Shown here one piece after another: positions 22,058 to 40,922 of a stretch of DNA of 42,987 nt; the stretch's first letter is position 1, and every line of letters begins with the position of its first letter. The notes beneath the pieces were generated by a model that was not told the origin of the DNA, did not search any database, and saw nothing but the letters and a program-made list of their open reading frames with translations. The stretch is from the NCBI GenBank assembly GCA_024281095.1, contig JAMXLJ010000044.1, forward strand, positions 1-42,987. Reading direction: 5' to 3'. The translations under genes were made by a program, and so were the position numbers. The stretch is from Acidimicrobiia bacterium. GTDB taxonomy: Bacteria; Actinomycetota; Acidimicrobiia; IMCC26256; JAMXLJ01.

Positions 22058-22195
22058 ACCTGCCTCCGAACCGACGCTTCGGGGGCTCGCGACGCTTCGT
22101 TCGGGTGCCAGAACCGCGTGCGGAGCCCGTCCCTGTCAGCGGGGTCACAAATAGAGGTGCAGCAGGCACCGTTCGACCGCAAGGAGATCGTCCTG

Positions 22196-23044
22196 ATGCG
22201 TCTCGCCCGCGTCGTGTCACCCGAGGGTCCGACCGTTCTCGCGCGCCTCGACGACGGGCAGGCGGTACCGATCGTGACGTGTTCCGCCCGGTTCGCGAGC
22301 GACGAGCTGCGCGACGCGCTCGCTGCGGACGTCGACCTCGGCTCGATCGACCCGATCGGCGAGAGCTTTCCCGTCGCCGGTGCGAGCTGGCGCGCTCCGC
22401 TGTGCTTCCCCCAGAAGATCCTTGCGATCGGCTTGAACTACGCGGACCATGCACGCGAGGCCCAGCTCGAGATCCCTTCGAACCCGATGCTCTTCACGAA
22501 GTTCACGAACGCGATCATCGGCCCGGACGAGCCGATCCGTTACCGGCGAACGGACTCCGAAGAGGTCGACTACGAGTGCGAGCTCGCGGTCGTGATCGGA
22601 CACCGCGCCCGCAACCTCGCGGTCGAGCATGCGCTCGACGCGGTGTACGGCTACACGATCTGCAACGACATCTCCGCGCGCGATGCGCAGTTCAGCGACG
22701 GCCAGTTCTCGCGCGCGAAGTCGTTCGACACGTTCTGTCCATTGGGGCCCGTCGTCGTGACGGCCGACGAGATCGGCGACCCGCAGGCGCTCGGGATTCG
22801 CACGCGCGTGAACGGGCACACGGTTCAGGATTCGACGACGGCCGAGATGATCTTCTCCGTGGCGGAGCTGATCGCCTACCTTTCCCGGTTCATGACGCTC
22901 GAGCCCGGCGACGTGATCGCGACGGGCACACCTGCGGGCGTCGGCATGGCGCGCACGCCGCCGCTGTACCTCGGCGACGGCGATGTCGTCGAGGCCGAGA
23001 TCGACCGTCTCGGCGTGCTGCGCAACCCCGTCGCCGTCATCTGA
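22196..23044 (+). CDS. Fumarylacetoacetate hydrolase (FAH) family protein
   Basis: The 282-residue protein has a short N-terminal domain and then the FAH fold. The landmark GLNYADHAREA comes first. Metal ligands are in DYECELAVVIG (E127, E129) and NDISARD (near residue 158), and a GDVIATGTPAGVG block lies near the C-terminus. Family members hydrolyse C-C bonds in acylpyruvates, or act as decarboxylases or hydratases in aromatic and heterocycle breakdown. AAGGAG 9 nt upstream supports ATG 22196. It is convergent with the amidohydrolase module (16-nt gap) and has its own island-type promoter, so a late ring-cleavage step is likely. Confidence 0.92.
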   Translation: MRLARVVSPEGPTVLARLDDGQAVPIVTCSARFASDELRDALAADVDLGSIDPIGESFPVAGASWRAPLCFPQKILAIGLNYADHAREAQLEIPSNPMLFTKFTNAIIGPDEPIRYRRTDSEEVDYECELAVVIGHRARNLAVEHALDAVYGYTICNDISARDAQFSDGQFSRAKSFDTFCPLGPVVVTADEIGDPQALGIRTRVNGHTVQDSTTAEMIFSVAELIAYLSRFMTLEPGDVIATGTPAGVGMARTPPLYLGDGDVVEAEIDRLGVLRNPVAVI

Positions 23045-23060: not shown

Positions 23061-24395
23061 TCATCCCGAGAACGTGTGCCTTCCGTTGAAGTACACGTGC
23101 TGGCGCTCGAAACGCACCTGCTCGCGGGCAGGCACGGGAGTGGTGAGGTCCACTTCCTTGCCGGCCTTCATGATCATGCGGAACGACTCGGTGTGCTGCA
23201 GCACGCGAATGTCTTTCGAAGGGTCTCCGTCCACGACGAGGATGTCGGCGAGCTTGCCGGCATCGAGACTGCCGATCTCCGACTCCCAACGGGGCAGGGT
23301 CCGCGCCGCCTGCAGGGTGCCCGCGTTGATCGCGGCGAGCGGCGAGAGTCCGACGTGGGTGACGAGGATCTCCATCTCCTTCGCGTGCCATTCACCGTAC
23401 GGTGTGAGAGAGAACCCGGCTTCGGAGCCCGCCATCAGCGGCACACCCGCGTCGTAGGCCCGACGAATGTTCTCGGCGGACGTGTCGATCTCGCGTTTCA
23501 GACTGTCGCGTGACGCTGCCGACATCTCGGCGCCCGTCGCGTCGAGCGCGTTCACGAGCAGCGGCAGCGTCGGACAGATCGGGATCTTTTTCTCGGCGAC
23601 CAATTCGAGGCCTTCGTCATCCATGAACGACGCGTGCATGATCCAGTCGAACCCCGCCTTCGCGGCGAAGGTGACCGACTCGGCCGAGCGCGCATGGATC
23701 GTGCACTTCCTGCCGAGTCGGTGCACCTCGTCGGAAAGGAGCTGCAGCTCATCGAGCCGGAACGCGCAGCCGTGGATGGGGTTGTAGTAGCTCGTCGCGT
23801 CACCCGAACCGGCAACCTTGACGAAATCGACCGTGTCCTTGATCTGCAGGCGCACCGCTTCGAGGATCTCGTCCTTGCTGCGCACGAGGACGCTCGCATT
23901 GCCGGGCGGATTGGCGATCCAGTTCGGGAACGCGTCACCGAGACCCTGGTGGGTCGTGATCTCGGGGCCCGCGACGGCGAACCGGGGGCCTTCCACCAGA
24001 CCGGCCTCGACCGCGTCGCGCACCGCGATCGGAACACGGTAGACCGCGGCCGGATCCGACGCGCTCGTGACACCGGCGCGCAGCACCCGCTTGGCGCTGT
24101 GGGTCGCGACGATCGCGCGCCACTCCGCGGATCCGTACATTGCAAGCTCCTCTTCGGAGCGGGGCTCGCCGTACGAGATGTGGCAGTGGGCATCGACGAT
24201 TCCCGGGATGATCGTCGCGTCACCGAAGTCGACAACCGTGGCCGCCGCCGGTTGATGCTTCCACGACTCCGGCAACGCGTCGCGTGCGCCCACCCAGGCG
24301 AGGCGTTCGCCGACGACGACCACGGCTCCGCGCTCGATCGGGTCCGCGCCGGTGCCGTCGATCACACGCCCGTAGAGGATGTACTCGTCGGTCAT
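23061..24395 (-). CDS. Imidazolonepropionase-type amidohydrolase, module I
   Basis: This 444-residue metal-dependent hydrolase has the urease/dihydroorotase barrel. Visible ligands are H70-x-H72 (DAHCH), the carbamylatable lysine K193 (FVKVAG), H234 (TIHAR) and H254 (IMHAS). At the position where relatives have GTDAG, this protein reads GSEAG, so the catalytic aspartate is replaced by glutamate (E325); the paralogue at 28270-29637 has the same change. GKLADILVVDGDP closes the family pattern. Such enzymes open cyclic amides or cleave amide and peptide bonds. AAAGGAA 4-5 nt before ATG 24395 sets the start. It is the last gene of module I. Confidence 0.88.
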   Translation of the reverse strand: MTDEYILYGRVIDGTGADPIERGAVVVVGERLAWVGARDALPESWKHQPAAATVVDFGDATIIPGIVDAHCHISYGEPRSEEELAMYGSAEWRAIVATHSAKRVLRAGVTSASDPAAVYRVPIAVRDAVEAGLVEGPRFAVAGPEITTHQGLGDAFPNWIANPPGNASVLVRSKDEILEAVRLQIKDTVDFVKVAGSGDATSYYNPIHGCAFRLDELQLLSDEVHRLGRKCTIHARSAESVTFAAKAGFDWIMHASFMDDEGLELVAEKKIPICPTLPLLVNALDATGAEMSAASRDSLKREIDTSAENIRRAYDAGVPLMAGSEAGFSLTPYGEWHAKEMEILVTHVGLSPLAAINAGTLQAARTLPRWESEIGSLDAGKLADILVVDGDPSKDIRVLQHTESFRMIMKAGKEVDLTTPVPAREQVRFERQHVYFNGRHTFSG

Positions 24396-24435: not shown

Positions 24436-25623
24436 TCACGTCGAGGTGGGACTGATGGTTCGAGCCGGCGCGGGGGTGCCGGTGGGCACGTGAGACGCGG
24501 TCTTCGCGAGACGGGTCCGGATGGCCTCGCGCTTACCAACCCATGACACGAAGGGCGAACGGAGCCGCTCGAGGCCGCGCGGGCACGTCGCCGAGATGAG
24601 CCCCCACAGGTACGTCCACCGCTGGGTGTGGGCGACCAGCGGCCGCTCACGTGCCTCCCACTGGTCGAGGCCGTGCTCCAGATCGCCTGCGTAGCGGTCG
24701 GCGAAGACGGCGAGCGCGAGCGCGTTGGCCATCGCCAGGCCGGCTCCCTGGCCCAGGTTGGGCGGCTGCGCATGCACCGCGTCGCCGACGATCGCGACCC
24801 GACCGGCATGCCAGCGCGAGACCCGGACCATGGAGAACGCGTCCCACCGCGCTTCGGTTTCCGGGGTGATGCGCCGGATGTAGTGCTCCAGCGCAGGGAA
24901 CGACCGGACCCACGCGTCCTGGTCGACCGGGACGCGTCGCGCCGCGATGTCGTCGTTGCGACCGCAGAGCGCGAGGTAGATCCAGTCGCGGTGGCACGGC
25001 GTGTAGAGGATGCGCCGCGTGCCCGACCAGTACTCGACGCACCGGGACGCCTTCGCGCCGCGACACTCGAGCTCCGTACGCGGGATCAGCAACCTCGTCG
25101 CGCCGTCGCGCAGCGTGCGCTTGGCCCGAAGCAGACCAACCGAGTCACGGACGCGTGAATGGATGCCGTCGGCTCCGACGACCAGGTCGGCCCGCAGGGA
25201 CCTGCCGTCGCCAAGATGCAGCTCACCCGACGGAGCGGCGCCGACGACCTTGTGCCCCGGCTCGATGGTGACGCCGAGCGATACCGCCGCTTCCTGCAAC
25301 GCCGCGTGCAACGTGGGCCGCAGCATCGTGAACAGGCGCTCGGCCGGGCCGTGTTCGTATTCGAACTGTTCCACGAGACCGAGCCGCTCGTCGCGCACCT
25401 GGAACTGGTGGATGGGTTGCGCGGTCGCCAGCGCGCGGTCGAGCACACCGAGCGCGTCGAGCACCCGAAGCCCGTTCTCCCACACGTAGATGCCCGCACC
25501 GATCTCGCGCAGCTGCGGCGCTTGTTCCCACACGCGTGTCTTCCAACCCCGACTGGCGAAGGCGACGGCCGCGGCCAGGCCACCGAGGCCGGCTCCCGCG
25601 ATCTCAACCGAACGTCGGTGCAC
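24436..25623 (-). CDS. Single-component FAD-dependent aromatic monooxygenase, module I
   Basis: The 395-residue flavoprotein of the PHBH/salicylate hydroxylase group has GAGLGG for ADP binding (residues 10-15), GADG (150-153) and GDAVHAQPPNLGQG (280-293), which contacts the flavin. It would hydroxylate an aromatic or heteroaromatic ring with NAD(P)H and O2. A strong AAGGAGG 4 nt before GTG 25623 sets the start. Its paralogue at 33571-34731 shares long identical runs such as YVWENGLRVL and GTRRILYTPC, so the two likely act on related compounds. It lies between the hydrolase and amidohydrolase genes of module I. Confidence 0.93.
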   Translation of the reverse strand: MHRRSVEIAGAGLGGLAAAVAFASRGWKTRVWEQAPQLREIGAGIYVWENGLRVLDALGVLDRALATAQPIHQFQVRDERLGLVEQFEYEHGPAERLFTMLRPTLHAALQEAAVSLGVTIEPGHKVVGAAPSGELHLGDGRSLRADLVVGADGIHSRVRDSVGLLRAKRTLRDGATRLLIPRTELECRGAKASRCVEYWSGTRRILYTPCHRDWIYLALCGRNDDIAARRVPVDQDAWVRSFPALEHYIRRITPETEARWDAFSMVRVSRWHAGRVAIVGDAVHAQPPNLGQGAGLAMANALALAVFADRYAGDLEHGLDQWEARERPLVAHTQRWTYLWGLISATCPRGLERLRSPFVSWVGKREAIRTRLAKTASHVPTGTPAPARTISPTST

Positions 25624-25659: not shown

Positions 25660-26517
25660 TCACTGCGGGACGTCCCGCGCGGCGGATGCGTCAGCCGCAT
25701 CGAGTTGTGCAGTGAGGTGCCGCAGAAAGCTCTGCTGGATCCGATTGAACAACTCCGGCTTCTCGAGACAGGCCAGATGGCCCGCGCTCGAGAACTCGAC
25801 GTAACGCGAACCGGGGATCGCAGCTGCGACGGCCCTCCCGTATCGGGGCAACGTCACGAAGTCGTCGGCCCCGACGGTGACGAGCGTGGGCGCGGTGATC
25901 GTTCGCAGCAGGTCTTCGGCGTCGTGGTGGAGCCCCGCGTCGTACTGACCGGCGTGCGAGCCGAACGGCATGCTGCGGACGAACGCCCCGACCGTGCCGA
26001 GGGCGCCGCCTCCGAAACCGTGATCGCGCAGGTGGTCGGGCGACACGAGGAAGAAGGAGTAATTCGACCACGACTCGCCGTCGCCGAGGCGTGCGCTGGC
26101 GCGCCGGGCTTCGAGCCACGCCCCCAGGTGCGGCGCGGCGCGCGTCGACGGCCAGCTGCCGTGCAACGAGAGCGACGACACCCGAGCCGGCCATCGGCGC
26201 GCGACGGCAAGCGCGACCGCGGAACCAAGCGAGTGCCCGACCAGATGGGCCGACGACCAATCGAGAGCGTCCATCGCGGCGGCGACGTCGCCCGCCATCG
26301 CGTCCGTACTCCACCCACCGCGCGGAAGCGGATCGGACCCGCCGGTGCCCGCGTTGTCGAGGAGCAGGCACGTCGCCCAGCGCGTGAACGCAGGAAGCTG
26401 TGCCAGCGTCCAGAACGAGCCGGGCAAACCGGTGCCCGCGATCATCACGACCGGGACGGGGCCACACCCGACGGTCTCGAACGAGACGCTCCGCCCGCCA
26501 GTGTCGATCGTGGTCAT
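25660..26517 (-). CDS. Alpha/beta hydrolase, module I
   Basis: The 285-residue hydrolase has the elbow GHSLG (nucleophile S96), an acid in GADDFVTLPRY and the catalytic histidine in SSAGHLACLEKP. The IAGTGLPGSFW region carries the oxyanion loop. AGGAG 8 nt upstream supports ATG 26517. The paralogue at 30061-30900 shares the TLPRY and SAGHLA blocks. Within the module it may hydrolyse the ring-opened product, an ester, or an enamine/aminoacrylate-like intermediate as RutD does. That last idea is inference from the neighbouring Rid-family gene. Confidence 0.88.
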   Translation of the reverse strand: MTTIDTGGRSVSFETVGCGPVPVVMIAGTGLPGSFWTLAQLPAFTRWATCLLLDNAGTGGSDPLPRGGWSTDAMAGDVAAAMDALDWSSAHLVGHSLGSAVALAVARRWPARVSSLSLHGSWPSTRAAPHLGAWLEARRASARLGDGESWSNYSFFLVSPDHLRDHGFGGGALGTVGAFVRSMPFGSHAGQYDAGLHHDAEDLLRTITAPTLVTVGADDFVTLPRYGRAVAAAIPGSRYVEFSSAGHLACLEKPELFNRIQQSFLRHLTAQLDAADASAARDVPQ

Positions 26518-26548: not shown

Positions 26549-27019
26549 TCAGTGACCCGACACCCCGGCGTCGGAGCGATCGGGCAACACGGCAACTCCG
26601 TCGACTTCGACGGTGAGGCCCGGGAGCGCGAGTGCGGTGACCCCGAGCAGGGTGGAAGCCGGATACGGCGGATCGAAGTACTCGCCGCGGATCGCGTGCA
26701 GTGCCTCGCGCGCCCGTACGTCGGTCAGGTACACCTTGAGCGACACGACGTCCCGCAACGTCGCGCCGAGCCGCTCGAGGGTCGCCACGAGTGTGTCGAG
26801 CGTGTAGCGCAACTGCGCCTCGGGATCTCCCGGATGGACGACCCGGCCCTCGTCGTCGAGCGCGGTGTGGCCGGCGAGGAAGACGAGGTTCCCGGCGACG
26901 CGGGCGTTGGAGTACAGCCCGACCGAGAGTTGGCCGTCTGTCGCAGCGACGACGTCTGTCGGCTGGTCCGTCGTGTCGTCCGTGGCGTGGTCCGTGGCGT
27001 GGTCATGGCGCGCGCTCAC
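26549..27019 (-). CDS. Rid (YjgF/YER057c/UK114) family protein, module I, with Asp/Thr-rich N-terminal extension
   Basis: The 156-residue protein has a normal Rid domain from about residue 30 (LVFLAGHTALDDEGRVV, then ATLRDVVSLKVYLTD). The substrate-binding arginine of true RidA enamine/imine deaminases (PAR-S/V-C) is replaced: here the motif is PAST, with S122, so it belongs to an Arg-less subgroup with unsettled chemistry. The first 23 residues (HATDHATD, then DTTDQPTD) are an unusual acidic repeat encoded by tandem 12-mers. GAAGGAG 5 nt before GTG 27019 supports that start. It is the first gene of module I behind its own promoter. Confidence 0.87.
   Translation of the reverse strand: MSARHDHATDHATDDTTDQPTDVVAATDGQLSVGLYSNARVAGNLVFLAGHTALDDEGRVVHPGDPEAQLRYTLDTLVATLERLGATLRDVVSLKVYLTDVRAREALHAIRGEYFDPPYPASTLLGVTALALPGLTVEVDGVAVLPDRSDAGVSGH
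26978..27001. repeat. Tandem 12-bp repeat in the Rid gene 5' end
   Basis: Two exact copies of GTCCGTGGCGTG and a degenerate third encode the HATD-HATD stretch of the Rid-family protein. The reading frame is kept because the unit is 12 bp, so copy number could change without a frameshift. Confidence 0.7.
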
Positions 27020-27050: not shown

Positions 27051-27078
27051 ATCCTATAGTTGATAGCTTTTGGGTCAA
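27051..27078 (-). promoter_or_regulatory. Promoter of catabolic module I (TTGACC-16-TAGGAT)
   Basis: On the minus strand TTGACC (27078-27073) precedes TAGGAT (27056-27051) by 16 nt. The spacer is AT-rich and contains CTATCAACTATAG, a dyad related to the other island promoters. The -35 box overlaps the stop codon of the upstream MFS gene, so module I has its own start but could also receive read-through. The leader to GTG 27019 is about 25 nt. Confidence 0.55.
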
Positions 27079-28250
27079 GGACGTGGCGAAACCGGAGGCG
27101 GGACGACGCGCTGGCGCGACGCCCCGTGCGCGACCCACTGGGCGCACGAACCGCAGACGGCCACGCACACGGCCGCGCCGACGAAGACCGTCTTCAGGCC
27201 CGCCGTGGACGCGACGACCGCGAAGCCGATCGAGCCGATCGCCGCACCCCCGTCGAAGCACAGGTTCCATGCCGTCGAGCTGGACGCGAACTCGTCGGGC
27301 CCACGACGGTGCATGACGTCCGCGAGCGTCGCGGTACCGAGCACTCCGCACCCCGCGCCGGCCGCGGCTGCGGCGACCACGACCGCCATGCCGTCGGCGA
27401 GCACGCCGATTGCCAGCGAGCCGACGAGGGTCATGATCACACCCGGGATCACGAGCAAGGCGAACGGCACCCGATCCACCCTGGCGCCCGCGACGAGCCG
27501 GCCCGATGTCATCGCGATGCCGAACGCCAGCAGCGCACCCGAGCCCACGTGCGGATGGAGCAGCACCAGGAAGCTGTAGACGGCACCGAAGAACATCGCC
27601 GCAGGGAAGAACGACAGCAGCGATGCGAGCACGCCGCGATCGCGAAGCGCAGCCTGAACCGAGCCTGTTTCGGGCACTGCGAGCGCTTGCCGGGGGAGCC
27701 GCAGCCACGCGAGGACGGCACCGCCTGCCGCGACCGCGCTCGCGACGACGAAGAGCACCCCCCGCTGGCCGCCGTCGAACAAGGCGACGCCGAGCGGCGG
27801 GTAGACGATTCCGGCACCGGCCGTGAAGAACCCGTAGATGCCGAGCGCGCGTCCGCGTCGTTCGGGGTCGGCGAACACCGCGCAGAGCGCCGCACCCACG
27901 ACGGCGATGATCCCGAAGCCCGCACCGCGGACCGCGGTCACCACGAGGATCACGGCGATGTGCGACGAGAACGAGTAGCAGAGCCCCGGAACACCGATCA
28001 GTGCGAGGCCGAGCACGAACACGCCGTGCGCGCCCTTCCGGCGCAGGATCGACGGCATGAGCGCCTGACACGCGACCGTCGCGGTCATGAACACGCCGGT
28101 TGCCAATCCGGCCCCGAGGCGGCCGCTGCTCTGTTCCGCGATCAACGGCACGGTCGGCAACAGCAGGTAGAGGCAGCTGAAGCCTGCGAACGTCGACGCG
28201 ATCACGAACACGACCGCGCGGCGCGCGACCAGCGTGGGTGCCGCGCTCAT
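27075..28250 (-). CDS. Major facilitator superfamily transporter
   Basis: The 391-residue membrane protein has about twelve hydrophobic segments in two halves. MFS landmarks include DPERRGRALGIYGFFTAG after the fourth segment and a long cytoplasmic loop in the middle (residues about 190-205). It is the last gene of the module II operon, 19 nt after the amidohydrolase stop, so it probably imports the pathway substrate or exports an intermediate. The start at ATG 28250 lacks a strong ribosome binding site and could rely on coupling. Confidence 0.9.
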   Translation of the reverse strand: MSAAPTLVARRAVVFVIASTFAGFSCLYLLLPTVPLIAEQSSGRLGAGLATGVFMTATVACQALMPSILRRKGAHGVFVLGLALIGVPGLCYSFSSHIAVILVVTAVRGAGFGIIAVVGAALCAVFADPERRGRALGIYGFFTAGAGIVYPPLGVALFDGGQRGVLFVVASAVAAGGAVLAWLRLPRQALAVPETGSVQAALRDRGVLASLLSFFPAAMFFGAVYSFLVLLHPHVGSGALLAFGIAMTSGRLVAGARVDRVPFALLVIPGVIMTLVGSLAIGVLADGMAVVVAAAAAGAGCGVLGTATLADVMHRRGPDEFASSSTAWNLCFDGGAAIGSIGFAVVASTAGLKTVFVGAAVCVAVCGSCAQWVAHGASRQRVVPPPVSPRP

Positions 28251-28269: not shown

Positions 28270-29637
28270 TCAGGAGACGGTGTGGCCTCGACCGGTCGAC
28301 TCGTCGTAGCGGAAGCGGCCGAGGAGATAGATCTTGTTGCGCTCCCACGAGTACTCGTGCCGTTCGGGGATGGGTGTGTCGAGGTCGACCGGGACACCGC
28401 CCTTGAGCACCATCTTGCGGCGTGACGGCGACTGCAGGATGCGGATGTCCCCGAGCGGATTGCCCTCGACGACGAGGATGTCGGCGAGCTTCCCCGCCGT
28501 GAGAGTGCCGATCTGGTCGGCCCAGCGCGGCACCGTGACCGCGGCCGCGCCCGTTGCGGCATGAATCGCCTCGAGCGGCGTCATACCGAAATGGGTCACG
28601 CAGATCTCGAGCTCGCGTGCGTGCCACTCGCCGTACGGCACGAGCGACCAGCCCGACTCGGATCCGCAGATCAGGGTCGCGCCCTCCTTGTGGGCGAGGC
28701 TGAGGTTCTCGGCCGCGGCGTCGACTTCACGCTTGAAGACGTCGAGCGAGCTCGCGCCGGCCTCGCCGCTCGACGAGTCGAGGATGTTCACGAGCAACGT
28801 CAGCGTCGGCACGATCGGGATCTGCTTCTCGAGGACGAGATCGAGCCCTTCGCGATCCATGTACGACGCGTGCATGATCCAGTCGAAACCCGCGGCCGCC
28901 GTCGCGCGCACCGACGCCGCGGTGCGCGCGTGCACGGTGCACTTCCGGCCGAGCCGGTGGACCTCGTCGGCGAGGATCCGGAACTCGTCCGTGGTGAACG
29001 CCATGCCCTCCACCGGTCCCTGCGTCACCGCCGAGTCGTTCGAGCCCGACACCTTGACGACGTCGACGCCGTCCTTCACCTGCAGCCGCACCGCCTCGAT
29101 GATGTCGTCGCGGCTCTTCACGAGCACCCCGGCCTGACCGACCGGAAACTCCATCCAGCTCGGGAACGCGTCCTCGAGGCCCTGGTGCGTCGTGATCTGC
29201 GCACCCGCCGCGGCGAGCCGTGGGCCCTCGACGATCCCGGCCTCGATCGCGTCGCGAAGCGACACCGCGATGTTGAACGTGCTCGCCGGATCGCACGCGC
29301 TCGTGACCCCGGCGCGGAGGACCTTCTTCGCGTTCCAGGCCGCCAGCATCGAGCGGTACGCAACGGGCGTGTACAGCGCGAGCTCCTCTTCGGAGCGCGC
29401 CTCGCCGAACGACGTGTGCACGTGCGCGTCGACGAGCCCGGGCATGATCGTGTGCCCGGGCAGGTCAAGCACTTCGAGCTCGAGTTGGGCGAGGTGCTGA
29501 GGCAGCTGCTCGCGCTCGCCGACCCACTCGATGCGGTCTCCGATCACGACGACCACGCCGTCGGCGATCGCGGGAGCACCGGTACCGTCGACGACCGTGC
29601 CGCTGATGCGGTAACCCTGCACGCCCGCGCCGTTCAT
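28270..29637 (-). CDS. Imidazolonepropionase-type amidohydrolase, module II
   Basis: The 455-residue paralogue of the enzyme at 23061-24395 has the ligands H72-x-H74 (DAHVH), K195 (VVKVSG), H236 (VHARTA) and H256 (IMHAS). The usual GTDxG is GSESG here, with glutamate 327 in place of the aspartate. The two proteins share long runs (EVHRLGRKCT, the YGEWHA block, GKLADILVV), so they arose by duplication. AGGAGG 8 nt before ATG 29637 supports the start. It sits between the Rid-family and MFS genes in module II. Confidence 0.88.
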   Translation of the reverse strand: MNGAGVQGYRISGTVVDGTGAPAIADGVVVVIGDRIEWVGEREQLPQHLAQLELEVLDLPGHTIMPGLVDAHVHTSFGEARSEEELALYTPVAYRSMLAAWNAKKVLRAGVTSACDPASTFNIAVSLRDAIEAGIVEGPRLAAAGAQITTHQGLEDAFPSWMEFPVGQAGVLVKSRDDIIEAVRLQVKDGVDVVKVSGSNDSAVTQGPVEGMAFTTDEFRILADEVHRLGRKCTVHARTAASVRATAAAGFDWIMHASYMDREGLDLVLEKQIPIVPTLTLLVNILDSSSGEAGASSLDVFKREVDAAAENLSLAHKEGATLICGSESGWSLVPYGEWHARELEICVTHFGMTPLEAIHAATGAAAVTVPRWADQIGTLTAGKLADILVVEGNPLGDIRILQSPSRRKMVLKGGVPVDLDTPIPERHEYSWERNKIYLLGRFRYDESTGRGHTVS

Positions 29638-29662: not shown

Positions 29663-30064
29663 TCACCGCCGCGACGACGGGATCCCCGCCACGGCTTCGA
29701 TCTCGACGAGCATCTCGGGGTCGGCGAGGGCCGACACCTCGATCAGCGTGCTCGCGGGCCGCGCGTCCCCGAAGAACTCCCGGCGCACCGGGTTGATCCG
29801 CGTGCGGTCCTCGATGTTCCTCAGGAAGACGGTGACCTTCAGCACGTCGCGCAGGTCTGCGCCGACGGTCTGCAGGATGGCCTGCAGATTCCGCAGCACC
29901 TGGCGCGTCTGTTCGACGACGTCGCCCGCCGCCACGACCTTCCCGTCCGCATCGAACGGCGCCGCGCCCGAGACGAGCAGCAGATCGCCGAAGCGAACCG
30001 CGTCGGTGTAGTGGCTGATCGGCTCGCTCAGGCCGGCGACCCGAATCTCCTCGCGCTCGGTCAT
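29663..30064 (-). CDS. Rid (YjgF/YER057c/UK114) family protein, module II
   Basis: The 133-residue protein is a standard-length Rid domain. It has GDLLLVSGAAPFDADGKVV, DLRDVLKVTVFLRN and the C-terminal LVEIEAVAGIP. Where canonical RidA has Arg105, this protein has Ser105 (RPASTLIEV), so it lacks the carboxylate-binding arginine needed for 2-iminopropanoate hydrolysis. A different enamine, imine or peracid-type intermediate is more likely; RutC-like chemistry is one option. ATG 30064 overlaps the stop of the upstream hydrolase (ATGA), linking the two in expression. Confidence 0.9.
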   Translation of the reverse strand: MTEREEIRVAGLSEPISHYTDAVRFGDLLLVSGAAPFDADGKVVAAGDVVEQTRQVLRNLQAILQTVGADLRDVLKVTVFLRNIEDRTRINPVRREFFGDARPASTLIEVSALADPEMLVEIEAVAGIPSSRR

Positions 30065-30900
30065 CGTGCGCTCTCACTCCTTGCCGGCTCGGCCGCCTCA
30101 ACGCTGTCGAAGAATCGCTCGATCGCGGCGTTCATCTCAGCGCCGCGCTCCACCCAGGCGAGATGGCCCGCGCTCCGGATGACGTGCACCTGCGCGCCGG
30201 GTATGCGCGCCGCGACCTCTTCGTTGTACCGGGGCAGCGTGATGAGGTCCTCGTCGCCGTAGACGACCAGCGTCGGGACTGTGATCTCGTGCAGCCGGTC
30301 CATGGTGTCGTGGCCGAGATCGGCCTCGAAGTGTCCGATGTACGCGTGGAGCGGCTGCGCGGCCGAGTTCTTCGCGAAGAACTCCTCCACCTCGGCCTGG
30401 AGGTCGGGCTCGAGGTCGATGATCGTCGGCGACGACATCCAGAATGCAGACGCACGGAACGTCTCGATGGGTGCCGTGCGCAACATCGCGAGCCGGGCGT
30501 CGAACCACCGCCTGATGTGGTGTTCCCGGCGTGTCGACGACCACGTCGAGATCAGCACCGCCGACCGCACGAGCTCGGGCCGCCGCAACGCGATCTCCTG
30601 GATGATGGCGGACCCGAGGCTCACGCCGGCGAAGTGCGCAGTCTCGATCCCCAGGTGTTCGACGAGGGCAATGGCGTCGTGTGCGAAGGTCTCGAGCGTG
30701 TACGGGGCGTCCGGTGAATCGCTCGTGCCGGTGCCCCGGAGATCGAAGGTGATGCAGCGGTAGCGCCGCTCGAAGTGCGGAGTCTGCCAGCGGTCCCACA
30801 CGCCGCCGCCGATGCCGGTACCCGCGATCCACACGATCGGATCGCCCGTGCCCCGCTGCTCGTAGTGCAGGTCGATCCCGTTGAGGTGCGCGATCGGCAT
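30061..30900 (-). CDS. Alpha/beta hydrolase, module II
   Basis: The 279-residue hydrolase has the nucleophile elbow GVSLG (S94), acid in YGDEDLITLPRY and histidine in SAGHLAWVE. IAGTGIGGGVWD forms the oxyanion region. It resembles RutD and 3-oxoadipate enol-lactonase types in layout. It overlaps the Rid-family gene by 4 nt, and its paralogue in module I is likewise next to a Rid-family gene. A joint role, in which Rid and hydrolase process the same unstable intermediate, is a reasonable inference. Confidence 0.9.
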   Translation of the reverse strand: MPIAHLNGIDLHYEQRGTGDPIVWIAGTGIGGGVWDRWQTPHFERRYRCITFDLRGTGTSDSPDAPYTLETFAHDAIALVEHLGIETAHFAGVSLGSAIIQEIALRRPELVRSAVLISTWSSTRREHHIRRWFDARLAMLRTAPIETFRASAFWMSSPTIIDLEPDLQAEVEEFFAKNSAAQPLHAYIGHFEADLGHDTMDRLHEITVPTLVVYGDEDLITLPRYNEEVAARIPGAQVHVIRSAGHLAWVERGAEMNAAIERFFDSVEAAEPARSESAR

Positions 30901-30907
30901 CGGTGCC

Positions 30908-31375
30908 TCAGCTCCTTGCGCCCGAACTCAGCTTGATGATCTGTTGCAGCTCATCCGCGACACGGTGCGCGACCAGCTCGGCACGGGGCCGGTCGCGGAA
31001 GGAATCGCGCGCGTCGAAGAATCGCGGGCCGTGAAGCTGCGCTGGGATTCCCTCCGGACGGGCCGCGACGAGCACGTGCCAGTGCTCGTACGTCTCGCCG
31101 AACCTGTAGAGGTACACCTTCTCGCACCCCGTCGCGCGGCGGATGGCCTCGACGCTCGCCGAAAGCGCGGGCCCGAATGCCTGCAGCGCCTCGAACGGGA
31201 GATCCGAGAGGCTGCTCACGTGGGCGCGACTCTGGAGGAAGTACCACCCCGGCACGTCGAACCCGGGAAACACCGTCACCGTCCAGTGCCGGTCCTCGAA
31301 CACGACGACCGGCGACGTCTCGGACGGCCCGGCCGCGGTCGAGCACAGCGCGCACCCGCCCACTGCGGCCTCCAC
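30908..31375 (-). CDS. HIT-like protein with incomplete histidine triad
   Basis: The 155-residue protein has a C-x-x-C near the N-terminus (C8, C11) as in many HIT proteins. The PGWYFLQSRAHVSSLSDLP segment matches the HIT strand-loop, and the triad region reads EHWHVLV. The usual H-x-H-x-H is reduced to two histidines (H98, H100), so the AMP-transfer histidine pattern is altered and hydrolase activity is doubtful. The GTG at 31375 shares a base with the TAG stop of the SDR gene. Its place in a catabolic operon is unusual. Family assignment is fairly safe; activity is unknown. Confidence 0.75.
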   Translation of the reverse strand: MEAAVGGCALCSTAAGPSETSPVVVFEDRHWTVTVFPGFDVPGWYFLQSRAHVSSLSDLPFEALQAFGPALSASVEAIRRATGCEKVYLYRFGETYEHWHVLVAARPEGIPAQLHGPRFFDARDSFRDRPRAELVAHRVADELQQIIKLSSGARS

Positions 31376-32115
31376 TACCCCACCCCCCGTCCACCGTCGA
31401 CCGGGATCTCGATCCCCGTGATCCAGGACGACTCGTCGGAGATCAGGAAACGGACCAACCCCGCCACGTCGATCGGCTCGCCCACGCGACCGAGTGGGAA
31501 GAGGCGCTCCAGGTCGAGGAGCATCGCGTCGTAGGCCTCGGGCGCCATGCCCGCGTCGATGTAGATCTGGCTCCGCACCAGCGAGGGGACGATCGTGTTG
31601 ACGCGGATGCGGTCGGGCGCGAGCTCGGCCGCGGCGCCGCGGCCGAATGCCTCGATCGCACCCTTGGTGGCGGTGTAGATCGTCGCGTTCGGCAACGGCC
31701 GGCGGGTGAGCATCGTGCTGAAGTTGACGATCGATCCGTGCGTATGCCGAAGGCCCGGGAGGCACTGGACGATCATCGTGACGACGGCATCGAAGTTGGT
31801 CGCGAACTGGCTGCGGATGTCGGCCGGCGTCACCTCGGTGATCGGCTGCTCGATGATGATGCCGGCCGCATTGACGAGACCGCGGACGTCGCCCATCGAC
31901 TCGGTGATCTCGCCGATGCAGTGCTCGACGGCGGCGGGGTCACGCACGTCGCACGCGTAGCCCACGATCGTCCCTTCGGTCTTGTACCCCTCGAGACGGT
32001 CGAGCCGCCGACCGAGCGCGGCGACGGCAAATCCCCCGTCGGCGAGCGTCTCGCACGACGCGCGGCCGATGCCGGTGCCCGCGCCGGTGACAACCACGAC
32101 CCCGCTGTCGGCCAT
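31375..32115 (-). CDS. Short-chain dehydrogenase/reductase (SDR)
   Basis: The 246-residue classical SDR has TGAGTGIG (residues 10-17) for NAD(P) binding, DV near 56-57 for the adenine ring, NAAG (82-85), catalytic serine 133 and Y147-x3-K151. Arginine-rich GRRLDR after the second strand hints at NADPH preference. It would oxidise or reduce an alcohol/ketone in the module II pathway. It sits 24 nt after the amidohydrolase-2 gene and shares a base with the HIT gene. Confidence 0.92.
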   Translation of the reverse strand: MADSGVVVVTGAGTGIGRASCETLADGGFAVAALGRRLDRLEGYKTEGTIVGYACDVRDPAAVEHCIGEITESMGDVRGLVNAAGIIIEQPITEVTPADIRSQFATNFDAVVTMIVQCLPGLRHTHGSIVNFSTMLTRRPLPNATIYTATKGAIEAFGRGAAAELAPDRIRVNTIVPSLVRSQIYIDAGMAPEAYDAMLLDLERLFPLGRVGEPIDVAGLVRFLISDESSWITGIEIPVDGGRGVG

Positions 32116-32139: not shown

Positions 32140-33270
32140 CTACGCGCCGACGAGCTCGGGCAACTCGATCTGGAACAGCTCGCACGCGGTCCGGTACGCG
32201 ATGCCCGCGGCCACGTCGTCGGGTAGGTCGCTCACCATGTCGTTCACGATCTGGCGCGACCGGGGGAACGTGCAGCGAACGTGCGGGAAGTCGGACCCCC
32301 ATGTGAGCTTCATGTCGTTGCCGACCGCGCTGAGGACGTCGAGCACGTACGGGTCGTCGATGGCGCAGTGGTACACCCGCTGGAGCGCGTATTCCCGTGC
32401 CGGACGCTTGAGCCCCCGCAGCCCCCAACCTTCGGGATAGTCGTTTTCGAGCTGGTCGAGTCGCCACGCGAAGTACGGCAGCCACGCGACCTCGTACTCG
32501 CCGAGCATGAGCCGCAGGTCGGGGAACCGATCGAGCACGCGACCGAAGATGAACTCGTTGGCGAGGACCGGCTGGCACTCTGCGAGCACCGAGATCGTCA
32601 TGCCAGCCGCTTCTTCGAGGTCGTCACCCTGGAGTGTGAACGGATCGCGCTCGTTCCCGGTGATGATGTGCAGCACGATCGGCGACTTCGTGTCGACCGC
32701 GACCTGCCAGAGCGCGTCGTAGTGCTCACGACGGTACGGCGGCTGCGACTCGGCGGTGTCGGCGAACACCACCGCGCCACGCAGGCCGCGGCCGGCGGCG
32801 CGCTCGAGCTCCTCACACGCCCACGGGACGTCGTCGACCGGCAACATCGCCGTCGCGACGAACCGCTCGGGGTGCGACGCGGCGAACTCGGCGGCCCAAT
32901 CGTTGTACACGCGCGCGCAGTCACGCCGGAGATCGCCGTTCTGGATACGCATCGCGTACAGCATCCAGGTGGAGTTGAGGACCTCGAAGTCGACCTGATC
33001 GATATCGAGGCACTTGATGCGCGCGTCGGGATCGGACGCGGCCTGCTTCTGCAGCGCGCGGATCTCCGCGTCGGGCGACGACTGATCGATGATGCCGCCT
33101 TCGACCTCGATGTATTCGATGCCGGTGAAGAACAGCTTCGACCCGCCCTCGTCCTGGCGCACGAGCCTCGGCACCGCGTCGCCCCACTTCGAGCCGAGCG
33201 TCGACGTCCAGAGGTCGTACGGCTCGACGAGGTGCGAGTCAGCGGAGACGAGGTGCTCGATCGGGGCCAT
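32140..33270 (-). CDS. Amidohydrolase-2 (ACMSD/TIM-barrel) family metal-dependent hydrolase
   Basis: The 376-residue protein of the PF04909 type has an N-terminal metal motif DSH (D11, H13), a central histidine in IVLHIITG, and WGSDFPH near the C-terminus (D327, H330). Family members include decarboxylases of aromatic acids, ACMSD and 2-pyrone hydrolases. The N-terminal DSHLVEP and WGSDFPH pattern is the common actinobacterial catabolic subgroup. AGGAG 9 nt upstream supports ATG 33270. It is the first gene of module II behind a strong promoter, so a decarboxylation or ring-hydrolysis step is likely. Confidence 0.9.
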   Translation of the reverse strand: MAPIEHLVSADSHLVEPYDLWTSTLGSKWGDAVPRLVRQDEGGSKLFFTGIEYIEVEGGIIDQSSPDAEIRALQKQAASDPDARIKCLDIDQVDFEVLNSTWMLYAMRIQNGDLRRDCARVYNDWAAEFAASHPERFVATAMLPVDDVPWACEELERAAGRGLRGAVVFADTAESQPPYRREHYDALWQVAVDTKSPIVLHIITGNERDPFTLQGDDLEEAAGMTISVLAECQPVLANEFIFGRVLDRFPDLRLMLGEYEVAWLPYFAWRLDQLENDYPEGWGLRGLKRPAREYALQRVYHCAIDDPYVLDVLSAVGNDMKLTWGSDFPHVRCTFPRSRQIVNDMVSDLPDDVAAGIAYRTACELFQIELPELVGA

Positions 33271-33318
33271 GTGGCGGGTCTCCTTGTGCTCGCGGCGACC
33301 GGACTGCGTTGTCGCGAT

Positions 33319-33350
33319 GTCGACCGCGCTCACGCGGAGCGCGGTTCGAC
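33319..33350. promoter_or_regulatory. Hairpin in the leader of module II
   Basis: GTCGACCGCGCTC (33319-33331) and GAGCGCGGTTCGAC (33337-33350) pair over about 13 bp with one bulge and a 5-nt loop. It lies in the predicted 5' leader (about 175 nt) of the module II transcript. It may stabilise or attenuate the mRNA. Confidence 0.4.
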
Positions 33351-33570: not shown

Positions 33571-34731
33571 GTGACCACGTCTCGACATGCGGAGATCGCC
33601 GGCGCGGGCCTCGCGGGGCTCACGGCCGCGGTGGCGCTGGCCCGGCAGGGTTGGACCGTGCGCGTACACGAATCCGCGCCGGAACTGCGCGAGATCGGCG
33701 CCGGGCTGTACGTGTGGGAGAACGGCCTGCGGGTGCTCGAGGCGCTCGGCGTGCTCGAAGACATCGCACCGAACGCCCACCACGTGACCGACTTCGACGT
33801 CGTCGACGAGCGGTTCCGCATCGTGCAGCGGATGTCGTTCTCCGAGGCGCGCGGCGAGCGACTGTGGACCGTGCTGCGTCCCGAGCTCCACAAGGCGCTT
33901 GCGCAGCGCGCCGAGGCGAACGGCGTGGAGATCGTCACGTCGTCGAGGGTCGTCGCGGCAACGCCCGACGGCACGATCGCAACTGCCGCCGACCGCACCT
34001 ACCGGGCCGATCTCGTGATCGCAGCCGACGGCGTCAACTCGACGATCCGAGACTCGCTGGGCCTGCTCGCGCGCAAGCACTACCTGCTCGACGGCGCGAT
34101 CCGTCTGCTGGTGCCGCGTAGCTCGGTCGAACGTTCGGATCCCCAGTACCAGCGTTGCATCGAGTACTGGAAGGGGACGCGCCGCATCCTCTACACACCG
34201 TGCAGTCCGGATCACGTGTACCTCTGCTTCACCGGCCGCGCCGGCGACGAAGCAGCAAAACGGCTCCCCATCGACGTTGACATGTGGATGCGGGAGTTTC
34301 CGCGTCTCGCGTTCGCGATCGAGCGCGTCACGCCCGACACGCCGGCGCGCTGGGACCGATTCCCCATGGTGAAGGTCCACCAGTGGCGCCGTGGGCGTGT
34401 CGCGGTGATCGGTGACGCCGCGCACGCGCAGCCACCGAACCTGGGCCAGGGCGCGTGCCTGGCGATGTCGAGCGGCCTCGCCCTGGGCTCGATGCTCGGC
34501 ACCAGCAACGACATCGAGGGCGCGCTGGAGCGTTGGGAAGCGTACGAACGTCCCATCGTGCGCCACACGCAACGCTGGACCTGGCTGTGGGGCCTGGCAT
34601 CGGTCGCGTTCCCGCACCGGCTGCAGCGGGCGAGGTCGCGGTTCGTCTCGTGGCTCGCGCACCGGGACTGGGTAGCACGCAATCTCGAGCGCACGTCACG
34701 CCACGTGCCCGCCGGCGCGCCCGTCGATTAG
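33571..34731 (+). CDS. Single-component FAD-dependent aromatic monooxygenase, module II
   Basis: The 386-residue paralogue of the enzyme at 24436-25623 has GAGLAG (residues 11-16), AADG (near 150) and GDAAHAQPPNLGQG (about 282-295). The whole chain aligns with its paralogue, so both should hydroxylate related rings with NAD(P)H and O2. It is transcribed away from module II across the 14-bp repeats. The start is GTG 33571 after a weak GGGGGGA. The frame stays open far upstream, but that part overlaps the amidohydrolase gene antisense and has no flavoprotein features. Confidence 0.93.
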   Translation: MTTSRHAEIAGAGLAGLTAAVALARQGWTVRVHESAPELREIGAGLYVWENGLRVLEALGVLEDIAPNAHHVTDFDVVDERFRIVQRMSFSEARGERLWTVLRPELHKALAQRAEANGVEIVTSSRVVAATPDGTIATAADRTYRADLVIAADGVNSTIRDSLGLLARKHYLLDGAIRLLVPRSSVERSDPQYQRCIEYWKGTRRILYTPCSPDHVYLCFTGRAGDEAAKRLPIDVDMWMREFPRLAFAIERVTPDTPARWDRFPMVKVHQWRRGRVAVIGDAAHAQPPNLGQGACLAMSSGLALGSMLGTSNDIEGALERWEAYERPIVRHTQRWTWLWGLASVAFPHRLQRARSRFVSWLAHRDWVARNLERTSRHVPAGAPVD

Positions 34732-34787: not shown

Positions 34788-34815
34788 CGTGCACACCGGA
34801 GCCAGGGAGGCTTCC

Positions 34816-35553
34816 ATGGCAACTGGACGTGGGAAGACGCCCGTCGTCAGCAAAGCGCCGGCGACAACCGCGCGACCGTCGATGAACCCCGTCGCGCAGA
34901 GCTCCGTGGTCGACCGGGTCGGTCGCGAGCTGCGACGTGCCGTCCTCGACGGGCGGCTGCGGCCGGGGCAGAAGTTCTCGATCTCGCAGCTCAGCTCCGA
35001 GCTCGGAGTGAGCCACATCCCGGTGCGCGAGGCGCTGCGGCACCTCGAGAGCCAGGGCCTCGTGCAACTCCGGCCGGGTCGAAGCGGCGTCGTCACGCCG
35101 ATCAACGAAGCCGACCTGCACGAGATCTACCTGTTGCGAGAAGCGATCGAGACCGCGCTCATCCGCGAGGCGGCACCCAAGTACACCGACGAGCATCTCG
35201 CGACGCTGCATGACCAGCTCGTCGCGATGGAGGCCGAGGTCGGCGACCCCGAAGGTGACCAGTTCTGGCTGTCGCACCATCAGTTCCACTGGGGTTTGCT
35301 CGAGCCCGCCGCGAGTGCGTGGAGCGAGCGTCTGCTCGAACCGTTGTGGCACGCAGCGGAGCGGTACCTCCGCCTCTTCTTCGTCGAGGGCGTCCAGCTG
35401 GGTCCATCGATGACGGAGCACATCGCGCTGTACGACGCAGCCGAGCGGCGATCGGCGAAGCAGTTGAGCGACGTGCTGCGCTCGCACCTGCGCGAGAACC
35501 TCGAGATCCTGAGCCGCAGCGTTCGCACCCTCGAGACGAATTACGCGTCCTGA
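34816..35553 (+). CDS. GntR family (FadR/FCD subgroup) transcriptional regulator
   Basis: The 245-residue regulator has an N-terminal winged helix-turn-helix (about residues 34-100: SISQLSSELGVSHIPVREAL then LESQGLVQLRPGRSGVV). An all-helical FCD ligand-binding domain follows. Candidate metal-binding histidines are in HHQFHWGLLE, TEHIALYDA and RSHLREN. FCD regulators sense carboxylic acids and catabolic intermediates and often repress at AT-rich palindromes. It is the only regulator gene in the island, which makes it the likely controller. GGGAGG 5 nt before ATG 34816 supports the start. A basic, proline-rich N-terminal tail of about 30 residues precedes the helix-turn-helix. Confidence 0.92.
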   Translation: MATGRGKTPVVSKAPATTARPSMNPVAQSSVVDRVGRELRRAVLDGRLRPGQKFSISQLSSELGVSHIPVREALRHLESQGLVQLRPGRSGVVTPINEADLHEIYLLREAIETALIREAAPKYTDEHLATLHDQLVAMEAEVGDPEGDQFWLSHHQFHWGLLEPAASAWSERLLEPLWHAAERYLRLFFVEGVQLGPSMTEHIALYDAAERRSAKQLSDVLRSHLRENLEILSRSVRTLETNYAS

Positions 35554-35584: not shown

Positions 35585-36697
35585 TCATGCGTCGCCACCG
35601 CGAACGAACGCATTGCCGAGTGCGGCGGGTTGGCGGACCCGGCCGATGACGCCAGCGAGCACGGCGATCGTCAGCGCGTAAGGGAAGGCCAGCCACAGCA
35701 ACGACGGGAGCGTCACATGTGGCTGACGGATCCCCAGCACGACCGCGCCGAGCAGGATCACGACCGTCGTGACGGAGCCCGCGGTCAACAGGCGCGGCGC
35801 GCCGGCCGGCGCGCCCGCGCCACGCCGGCGTTTCACGAGCGTGGAGACGAGGTACACGGCCGCCAGCGCGGCGAGGACGATCCACACGCTGCGGGGCACG
35901 AAGGACTGGCTCTGGAGCCGCAGCTGGAGCGCGTCCGCGCCTCCGAACAGCAGCGCGGCCGCGAAGACGCCCAGGGGCCGCCAACCGCCCACGATCACCG
36001 CGGCGAGCGCGAGGAACCCGCGCCCGCTCGTCATGCCGGCGAGGAACGTGCCGACCAGTCCGATCGAGAGGAACGCGCCGCCGACGCCGGCGAGCGCACC
36101 CGCGATGAGCACGCCCTCCCACCGCAGGCGTCGAACACTCACGCCCGCCGTCTCGTCCGCTTCGGGCACCTCGCCCGCGGCGCGGATCCGCAGGCCCCAG
36201 CGCGTCCTGAAGAACGCGATCCACACCAGCGGCACCAACGCGAAGCCGACGTAGACGAGCGGAATCTGACGGAAGAGCGCGCTGCCCAGCAGTGGTAACT
36301 GATCAGCGCCGGGGATGGTCATCGCGGCCATGCGTTTGATGAAGATGTTCGGCCGTGACGCGACGTATTGCTGGAAGGCGAACACGGACACGCCGGCGCC
36401 GATGATGTTGAGTGCGACGCCGACGACGATCTGATCGGCCCGGGCCTCGATCGTGGCTACGGCCATGACGACCGCCAGCAGCACCCCGGCCAGCAGGCCG
36501 ACGGCGACGCCGGCCCAGACATTGTGCGTCTCCGCAGCTCCCCAGAATCCTCCGAACGCGCCGACGAGCATCATGCCTTCCAGACCCACGTTGATCACAC
36601 CGGCGCTCTCGGACACGAGCTCGCCGAGTGCGACGATCAGCAGCGGGCTCGCGATGAGGATCGCGGCCCGGAAGAACTCGCTGTCGAATGGCTGCAT
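35585..36697 (-). CDS. BMP-type ABC importer permease 2
   Basis: This 370-residue permease of the branched-chain/ribose type (BPD_transp_2) starts MQPFDSEFFRAAILIASPLL. It contains the typical GLEGMMLVGAFGGFWG, a VNIG/ALNIIGAGVS-like region, and the cytoplasmic coupling stretch RIRAAGEVPEADETAGVSVR. An extra C-terminal pair of hydrophobic segments extends past the usual end (residues about 295-360). Together with permease 1 it forms the membrane channel for the BMP binding protein and the double ATPase. It is the last gene of the importer operon, convergent with the GntR gene (31-nt gap). Confidence 0.92.
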   Translation of the reverse strand: MQPFDSEFFRAAILIASPLLIVALGELVSESAGVINVGLEGMMLVGAFGGFWGAAETHNVWAGVAVGLLAGVLLAVVMAVATIEARADQIVVGVALNIIGAGVSVFAFQQYVASRPNIFIKRMAAMTIPGADQLPLLGSALFRQIPLVYVGFALVPLVWIAFFRTRWGLRIRAAGEVPEADETAGVSVRRLRWEGVLIAGALAGVGGAFLSIGLVGTFLAGMTSGRGFLALAAVIVGGWRPLGVFAAALLFGGADALQLRLQSQSFVPRSVWIVLAALAAVYLVSTLVKRRRGAGAPAGAPRLLTAGSVTTVVILLGAVVLGIRQPHVTLPSLLWLAFPYALTIAVLAGVIGRVRQPAALGNAFVRGGDA

Positions 36698-36738
36698 GGC
36701 GTCGTCTGCCTTCTCCGTTCGCGCGGTGCTCGTCGCCG

Positions 36739-37848
36739 TCAGGTCGCGTCTGCCACCGATGCCAAACCGGGTTGCACGCGAGGCGGTGTGTCCTCGTTCG
36801 CATCGACACGTCGCGCGTGGAGGGCGCGTACGAGGAGACCTGAGCACGCGACGAGCACGACGATGACACCCTGCGTGATGAAGACGATCTCCGACGGCAC
36901 GTCGGCTCGGGCCTGCATGACGCCTCCTCCGGTGGCGAGGGCGGCGAACAGGAGCGCCGCGGGGACGGAGCCAATGGGCGAGTTGCGCGCCACCAGCGCG
37001 ACGACGATGCCCGTGAAGCCGACGTTTCCGGTGAAGCCGGATGTGAGCATGTGACGCTCACCGCCGAGTACGAGACCCGCTCCGGCGAGGCCGGCGAGCG
37101 CGCCCGACAGCAGGAATCCCAGGACGACGACGCGGACGGTGGACACACCCGCGTGGCGGGAGCACTCGTCGTTCTCTCCGGTGAGCCGAAGCTTGAACCC
37201 GAAGACCGTGCGGTTGATCAGGAAGACCATCGCCGCGACCGCGACGAGGCTGAGGATCGCGTCCGCGGAGAACGGGGTGCCGTTCGCCAGCTCGGGCCAT
37301 CGGAACGCGCCCGGGATGAGCTTGCTCTGGAAGGAAGCCTTGCCGGGCGCCTTCATCGGGCCCCGCACGACCCATTCGACGATCTGGCGCGCGATGAACG
37401 TGAGCATCAACGTGGAGACGATCTCGTTCACGCCCCGCTTCGCCCAGAGCACCGCGGCGATCGCCGCGTACACCGCCGCAGCGATCATCGCGACGATGCA
37501 GCTCAACGCGATCGCCGGCACCGACGGCAGTGACGGCCCCTCGACCGCGACCAACGTCGCGAAGATCCCGCCGATGATCACCTGTCCCTCGAGGCCGAGG
37601 TTCACCTTCCTCGACCGGAACGCGACGATCCAGCCGAGCGCGACGAGGATGAGTGCAGGCATGCGGGCGGCGGTGAGGTAGATCTGCCGTCTCGAGCCGA
37701 ACGCGCCGTCCCACAGCGCGCGGGCCGCGGCACCTGCATCGTGGCCCGTTGCCTGCACGAGGAGCATCGACAGCAACACGCCGGTGATGGTCGCGGCGAC
37801 CGCGAGGGCCACGCTGAGGACGGACTCACGCAGCTGCTCTGTGTTCAC
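36739..37848 (-). CDS. BMP-type ABC importer permease 1
   Basis: The 369-residue BPD_transp_2 permease has about ten hydrophobic segments, the early VNLGLEGQVIIGGIFATL motif, and the coupling stretch RLTGENDECSRHAGVSTVR. Such heterodimeric permeases carry nucleosides, purine-like compounds or other heterocycles. GGGAG upstream supports GTG 37848. Gene order (ATPase, permease 1, permease 2) is canonical. Confidence 0.92.
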   Translation of the reverse strand: MNTEQLRESVLSVALAVAATITGVLLSMLLVQATGHDAGAAARALWDGAFGSRRQIYLTAARMPALILVALGWIVAFRSRKVNLGLEGQVIIGGIFATLVAVEGPSLPSVPAIALSCIVAMIAAAVYAAIAAVLWAKRGVNEIVSTLMLTFIARQIVEWVVRGPMKAPGKASFQSKLIPGAFRWPELANGTPFSADAILSLVAVAAMVFLINRTVFGFKLRLTGENDECSRHAGVSTVRVVVLGFLLSGALAGLAGAGLVLGGERHMLTSGFTGNVGFTGIVVALVARNSPIGSVPAALLFAALATGGGVMQARADVPSEIVFITQGVIVVLVACSGLLVRALHARRVDANEDTPPRVQPGLASVADAT

Positions 37849-37876
37849 CGGCGCTCCCGGATGGCGACGTTCAGGC

Positions 37877-39457: not shown

Positions 39458-39506
39458 GCCCACACCTCTTTCGTGTCACGAACGCCGGATACCCGGGCCT
39501 TCGACC

Positions 39507-39559
39507 GGACGGGCCCTCGGCTGCCAGGCCAGGCGCTGCCTGCCAACCGAGGGCCGTCC
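39507..39559 (-). other. Intercistronic hairpin between binding-protein and ATPase genes
   Basis: GGACGGGCCCTCGG (39507-39520) pairs with CCGAGGGCCGTCC (39547-39559) over 13 bp with one bulge and a 26-nt loop. It follows the substrate-binding gene, a usual place for an RNA-stabilising or partial-terminator hairpin that lets the binding protein be made in excess. Confidence 0.6.
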
Positions 39560-39577
39560 ATCACCGCCGGCCTCCCC

Positions 39578-40657: not shown

Positions 40658-40680
40658 CGCGCTTGCCTTCCTTTCGTTAC

Positions 40681-40870: not shown

Positions 40871-40922
40871 CAACGCTTGATGTCACCCACGCGTGCATCT
40901 GTCCCACGTCGTCGGGCGAGCG

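Follow-up and report, generated by a model that had tools for sequence, protein, structure and literature searches.

Two genes in a 42,987-nucleotide stretch of DNA from an Acidimicrobiia bacterium (contig JAMXLJ010000044.1; the window, in what follows) encode Rid-family proteins with serine where RidA has its substrate-binding arginine, Arg105. On what do such proteins act? The question reaches beyond this locus: Arg105 serves as the deaminase criterion for Rid proteins, roughly half of those in our sample are without it, and the Rid subfamilies that lack it have been termed mysterious in the literature. The best explanation, to which we would give slightly under an even chance, is that the two proteins, Rid I and Rid II, belong to a pathway in which they deaminate a ring-opened enamine released by an alpha/beta hydrolase, in a pocket with an arginine at position 91, and do not serve as general scavengers of 2-aminoacrylate.

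Two Rid genes in two paralogous modules

Rid I and Rid II belong to the Rid superfamily (PF01042) by profile score, both lying above the Pfam cut-off of 27.3 bits (Table 1), and by fold: the AF2 model of Rid II (pLDDT 89.6) has, as a monomer, a TM score of 0.89 to 8yrc and superimposes on 6tcc at 1.8 Å over 130 residues (Z 21.5). Alignments to solved Rid structures, which are ungapped at the site (2dyy, 5yu2, 2b33, 5v4d and 1xrg for Rid II; 3k0t, 3r0p and 2cwj for Rid I), place Ser105 of Rid II and Ser122 of Rid I at the RidA arginine. A preliminary description of this DNA had claimed that both proteins lack that arginine; it was right, and its residue numbers are exact. Both also have Leu in place of Cys107. 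Among the other residues of archetypal RidA, Tyr17, Gly31 and Glu120 are retained in both, and Asn88 is retained in Rid II and replaced by His in Rid I. The serine likewise stands where Rid4 and Rid7 have Trp and where RutC has Arg104. The NCBIfam model for archetypal RidA, TIGR00004, gives Rid II 94.6 and Rid I 58.2 bits, both under its cut-off of 106.25; the RutC model, TIGR03610, gives 78.3 and 53.6 bits, both far under its cut-off of 169.1.

Loss of Arg105 is common. Serine occupies its place in ~10% of RidA proteins (Niehaus 2015, PMC4433059), and Rid4 to Rid7 all lack it, with Trp in Rid4 and Rid7 and a variable residue in Rid5 and Rid6 (PMC4433059). Our background sample, 60 readable Rids around PF01042 matches in the window's own phylum, has Arg105 in 31, Ser in 10 and other residues in the remainder, so that 29 of the 60 are without the arginine. 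With about half of the sampled Rids and the literature's tenth of RidA as precedents, two Rids without Arg105 in one window are unremarkable on that count alone. The same genome encodes two further Rids, on other contigs, and both keep Arg105.

Table 1. Coordinates of the features of the window
Feature	Coordinates	Strand	Remarks
FAA_hydrolase family	22118..23044	plus	convergent with module I; KpiD-like at family level; single copy
AH1, Amidohydro_1	23061..24395	minus	likely ATG 24395
FMO1, FAD_binding_3 monooxygenase	24436..25623	minus	
ABH1, alpha/beta hydrolase	25660..26517	minus	likely ATG 26517; starts 31 nt after Rid I stop
Rid I	26549..27019	minus	156 aa; S122 at R105 place; PF01042 83.5 bits
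MFS transporter	27075..28250	minus	between Rid I and AH2
AH2, Amidohydro_1	28270..29637	minus	metal ligands HxH, K, H, H retained; Glu at beta8 Asp
Rid II	29663..30064	minus	133 aa; S105-T106-L107; PF01042 111.3 bits
ABH2, Abhydrolase_1 (PcaD/RutD-like)	30061..30900	minus	stop overlaps Rid II start in ATGA
SDR dehydrogenase	31375..32115	minus	
Amidohydro_2 protein	32140..33333	minus	nearest solved relative PtmU3
FMO2, second FAD monooxygenase	33574..34731	plus	open frame 32281-34731, homology from about 33574
GntR/FCD regulator	34789..35553	plus	
ABC transporter: two permeases, ATPase, BMP-type binding protein	35585..40873	minus	

Each Rid adjoins an alpha/beta hydrolase gene, by overlap or across a short gap, and lies in a same-strand run with an amidohydrolase gene, which bears out what had been said of their surroundings. 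The neighbors are themselves paralogous: FMO1 and FMO2 are 54% identical, AH1 and AH2 56%, ABH1 and ABH2 36%, and Rid I and Rid II 40%. (FMO2 was located through a minus-strand open reading frame whose matches are antisense to other FMO genes.) That the set of four genes occurs twice in the window argues that monooxygenase, amidohydrolase, alpha/beta hydrolase and Rid would work together. A recent tandem duplication of the Rid genes was considered and rejected: the two are only 40% identical, and the amidohydrolase-linked Rids closest to the one are not those closest to the other, the position of Rid I having no marked support on the tree.

Some further features of the neighborhood deserve mention in their own right. 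AH1 as well as AH2 retains every metal ligand and has Glu in place of the beta8 Asp. This Glu is shared by 31 of 83 members of the amidohydrolase family, the other 52 having Asp; in AH1 and AH2 it is followed by a PYGEWHARELE-like motif. The solved structures nearest to the Amidohydro_2 protein are those of PtmU3, DitZ and other Amidohydro_2 members; since PtmU3 is a dinuclear monooxygenase/oxygenase of PF04909 (PMC10811679), the protein may itself act as an oxygenase and not as a hydrolase. Relatives of it at 41-44% lie near Rid and amidohydrolase genes at five loci. ABH2 and the SDR gene are about 470 bases apart (30901-31374), and no open reading frame that was tried in this interval has a Pfam match.

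Linkage to an amidohydrolase subfamily and a proposed pathway

A scan of the genome collection with AH2 as query yielded 80 loci, several of them incomplete, of which 19 hold readable Rids, 21 in all. Twenty of these 21, located within 8 kb of the amidohydrolase, are of the type that lacks Arg105 and has Arg91, vs 10 of the 60 background Rids (Fisher p about 1e-10, with kinship ignored). Conversely, such an amidohydrolase is absent from the 5 kb or so around every background Rid. The linkage is frequent, not universal; the amidohydrolase loci of Rhodococcus ruber and R. opacus have different neighbors. Genes for alpha/beta hydrolases, FAD monooxygenases, FAA hydrolases, GntR regulators and ABC transporters recur as partners. 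Mycobacterium sp. NAZ190054 has amidohydrolase, alpha/beta hydrolase, Rid, FAA hydrolase, FAD monooxygenase and NMT1/THI5 genes in one run; a Rhodococcus rhodochrous BX2 plasmid has the order GntR, amidohydrolase, HpaB monooxygenase, alpha/beta hydrolase, Rid (57% identical to Rid II) and FAA hydrolase, with transposases on either side; Geodermatophilus has FAD monooxygenase, FAA hydrolase, GntR, amidohydrolase, Rid and alpha/beta hydrolase; and an alphaproteobacterial locus has alpha/beta hydrolase, Rid, amidohydrolase and Amidohydro_2 genes together with a sugar-type ABC transporter. The alpha/beta hydrolases of the Mycobacterium and BX2 loci are just 23-27% identical to those of the window, and the Mycobacterium FAD monooxygenase is 29-30% identical to FMO1 and FMO2.

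The same families are found together in the kpi cluster of Arthrobacter sp. IN13, which encodes a 4-hydroxypyridine pathway (PMC7356986). KpiA, an FAD_binding_3 protein nearest to alkylquinolone hydroxylase, is the 4-hydroxypyridine 3-monooxygenase; KpiC, of Amidohydro_1, converts 3,4-dihydroxypyridine with the addition of two oxygens; KpiB, of Abhydrolase_1, leads to 3-formylpyruvate; KpiD is an FAA hydrolase and KpiR1 a regulator of the FadR family (PMC7356986). The hydrolysis of 3-formiminopyruvate was held by the kpi authors to be more likely spontaneous and to require separate investigation (PMC7356986). Among the plasmids searched, no clear relative of AH2 from an Arthrobacter kpi cluster came up. 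One Arthrobacter plasmid, pLDW-10 of A. crystallopoietes DSM 20117, carries a monooxygenase of the FMO group, with genes for a TorT-like binding protein, a sugar-type ABC transporter and an amidohydrolase next to it; this amidohydrolase has no similarity to AH1 or AH2 at E 1e-5, and the locus is possibly another N-heterocycle gene set.

The monooxygenases and the transporter of the window point in the same general direction. By sequence, FMO1 and FMO2 fall within the 4-quinolone/4-pyridone C3-monooxygenase group: both match the monooxygenases beside MeqE (Arthrobacter Rue61a pAL1) and AqdC1 (R. erythropolis BG43) at 39-41% over 340-377 aa, and the nearest solved relative of FMO1 is MHPCO, at 229 bits, the next enzyme scoring 105. 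The four ABC subunits find their best NCBIfam matches in 'putative B6 ABC transporter' models, though none of them reaches its curated cut-off. Taken together, the kpi families, the affinities of the monooxygenases and the B6-like transporter favor an N-heteroaromatic, 4-pyridone-like substrate. The vitamin B6 pathway itself, to which monooxygenase and transporter lean, was rejected: the transporter scores lie under the B6 cut-offs, and AH1 and AH2 have no known place in that pathway.

We infer from these affinities the following course of events. Each Rid would serve one of two paralogous modules for a hydroxylated N-heteroaromatic (pyridine- or pyridone-like) compound, whose ring the FAD monooxygenase would hydroxylate. 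The ring would then open, perhaps through the amidohydrolase-family protein acting in the manner of KpiC, and give an N-acyl (N-formyl) enamine, from which the alpha/beta hydrolase would take off the N-acyl (formyl) group; and the Rid would hydrolyse the resulting enamine/imine to aldehyde and ammonia, with Glu121 activating the water and a remote carboxylate held by Arg94 in place of Arg105. The FAA hydrolase would split the product. The most specific candidate for the substrate of the Rid is 3-formiminopyruvate (4-amino-2-oxobut-3-enoate). If this is true, the Rid gene is the gene for the enamine step of 4-hydroxypyridine-type catabolism, the step that its discoverers thought likely to be spontaneous.

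It is the amidohydrolase that lends itself to another reading, in which the substrate is acylated or amide-linked, the amidohydrolase is an amidase or dipeptidase, and the imine that the Rid removes comes from another enzyme, for example the SDR or the monooxygenase. The solved structures nearest to AH2 are the Cc2672 carboxypeptidase, Xaa-Pro dipeptidase and ochratoxinase, its set of metal ligands is complete, and its match to enamidase, the nearest characterized relative of KpiC, is weak (E = 0.0027); because of these affinities AH2 may be an ordinary amidase. This reading of the pathway leaves aside the grouping of FMO1 and FMO2 with 4-quinolone/pyridine monooxygenases and the linkage to an FAA hydrolase and a B6-like transporter, and we judge it unlikely. 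On the side of the alpha/beta hydrolase, E-2-(acetamidomethylene)succinate hydrolase is not among the best 60 solved structures listed for ABH2, although the two may be related.

A second alternative takes the clade out of deaminase chemistry altogether, making its members tautomerases, acyl-enamine hydrolases, or structural or regulatory partners of the alpha/beta hydrolase. No Rid4 to Rid7 protein, all of which lack Arg105, has so far displayed deaminase activity (PMC8113886, PMC4433059), and Rid and alpha/beta hydrolase genes are adjacent or overlap at several loci. Set against this are the retention of the fold, the presence of Glu120 in all 29 Ser-type Rids, and the fit of the proteins to an enamine step that has no assigned enzyme; we would not expect this alternative to be the correct one.

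The pocket around positions 105 and 91

What separates Rids with Arg105 from those without it is more than one residue. In a comparison of 114 Rids, comprising the background sample, the amidohydrolase-linked Rids and the other Rids of their genomes, arginine is found at E. coli position 91 in none of the 54 Rids with Arg105 and in 35 of the 60 without it, a contrast that follows nearly a single split on the tree (two changes) and contains no independent replicates of the 105/91 exchange; an independent-pairs test of the exchange finds 1-2 pairs only and is hence without power. The columns that best separate the Arg type from the Ser type are 105, 91, 16, 107, 114, 88, 87 and 84. Phe147 and Pro174 of Arabidopsis RidA line the ligand site (PMC4960622) and Gln103 of AmnE is a cleft position (PMC6742747); by our residue counting these correspond to E. 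coli 84, E. coli 114 and the place of Asn88, respectively. In E. coli numbering, Arg87, Asn91, Arg94 and Glu121 of Rid II stand at Phe84, Asn88, Tyr91 and Glu120, and Arg104, His108 and Arg111 of Rid I at 84, 88 and 91, so that both window Rids carry a second arginine, at 84, in addition to the one at 91. Arg94 of Rid II occupies one of nine columns that are invariant in 17 relatives (27-54% identity), and in the model Arg87, Asn91 and Arg94 share one face of the helix 84-98 (i, i+4, i+7). Since several of the separating columns are known pocket positions and Arg94 is invariant, the pocket appears to have been remodelled as a whole, beyond the loss of one arginine.

Arg94 is proposed as a new carboxylate anchor, which is purely our inference; the residue could instead be structural. 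The proposal has a simple geometric counterpart in the candidate substrate. The carboxylate of 3-formiminopyruvate is separated from the imine carbon by two carbons more than that of 2-iminopropanoate, and the change of Arg105 to Ser and of Cys107 to Leu, with an arginine one turn past Asn88, would match such a remote carboxylate. A bolder generalization would make the whole branch without Arg105 and with Arg91 a distinct type of enamine deaminase, its anchor moved from the strand at 105 to the helix at 91 to suit carboxylates remote from the imine, and would assign to it the deaminase step that aerobic cleavage of the pyridine ring lacks; as it stands we think this somewhat unlikely. Should the branch use a relocated arginine, the Arg105 rule is wrong for it and many annotations change. 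Serine at 105 was already known; in the literature searched, neither the Arg91 exchange nor its association with a kpi-like gene set turned up. Rids at ten loci form another group without Arg105, with His at 91 and, for the most part, Met at 107, the residue at 105 being Ala, Thr, Asn, Ser or Leu: a second alternative pocket.

The preliminary description took the serines to mean that the intermediate perhaps has no carboxylate, so that the enamine or imine would be hydrolysed with no need of the arginine. Ser105 and Leu107 do lower the basicity of that part of the pocket, and RidA and RutC lose their activity on amino-acid imines when the arginine is replaced (PMC4433059, PMC8113886). The same description had named another arginine in the pocket as what would refute it. 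At the level of the alignment such arginines are present (Arg94 and Arg87 in Rid II, Arg111 and Arg104 in Rid I), with Arg91 conserved across the clade; their contact with substrate is putative. The intermediates of the matching kpi-like pathway keep their carboxylate and, because in 3-formiminopyruvate it is retained at a greater distance from the imine, a substrate without one is not the best reading: possible, but second best, and in our estimate quite unlikely. The broader claim, that the intermediate is something other than 2-aminoacrylate, is in contrast very likely, given the dead arginine variants, the two Arg105 Rids elsewhere in the genome and the catabolic gene set. Ordinary RidA activity on 2-aminoacrylate, for which the RidA-like fold, Glu120, Tyr17 and Gly31 might speak, is very improbable indeed when R105A kills the activity of plant and Salmonella RidA (PMC4433059) and the genome's two other Rids keep the arginine.

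Comparison with known systems

The deamination of a ring-opened enamine that we prefer for Rid I and Rid II draws its closest pathway parallel from the kpi cluster, which, like the window, brings together FAD_binding_3, Amidohydro_1, Abhydrolase_1, FAA_hydrolase and FadR/GntR genes, a match that holds at family level only. Unlike the window, it has no reported Rid gene, and its uptake system is a permease, where the window has an ABC transporter.

Among proteins of the Rid fold, two pathway deaminases offer precedents. RutC, the 3-aminoacrylate deaminase of the rut operon, works in an N-heterocycle pathway and has the alpha/beta hydrolase RutD encoded next to it, but keeps Arg104, which Rid I and Rid II lack. 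The 2-aminomuconate deaminase AmnE (6IZH; Z 20.6 to the Rid II model) acts after the cleavage of an aromatic ring, and it too differs from the window Rids in keeping an arginine, Arg117, at the 105 place. The Ser-type minority of RidA (~10%) shares with them Ser105, the glutamate and the PF01042 fold; for that minority no function or context is given (PMC4433059), whereas the window type belongs to a branch without Arg105 that has Arg91 and a catabolic gene set. Rid4 to Rid7, finally, share the lack of Arg105 and are set apart by what replaces it: Trp in Rid4 and Rid7 and a variable residue in Rid5 and Rid6, as against the Ser-Thr-Leu and Arg91 of the window Rids.
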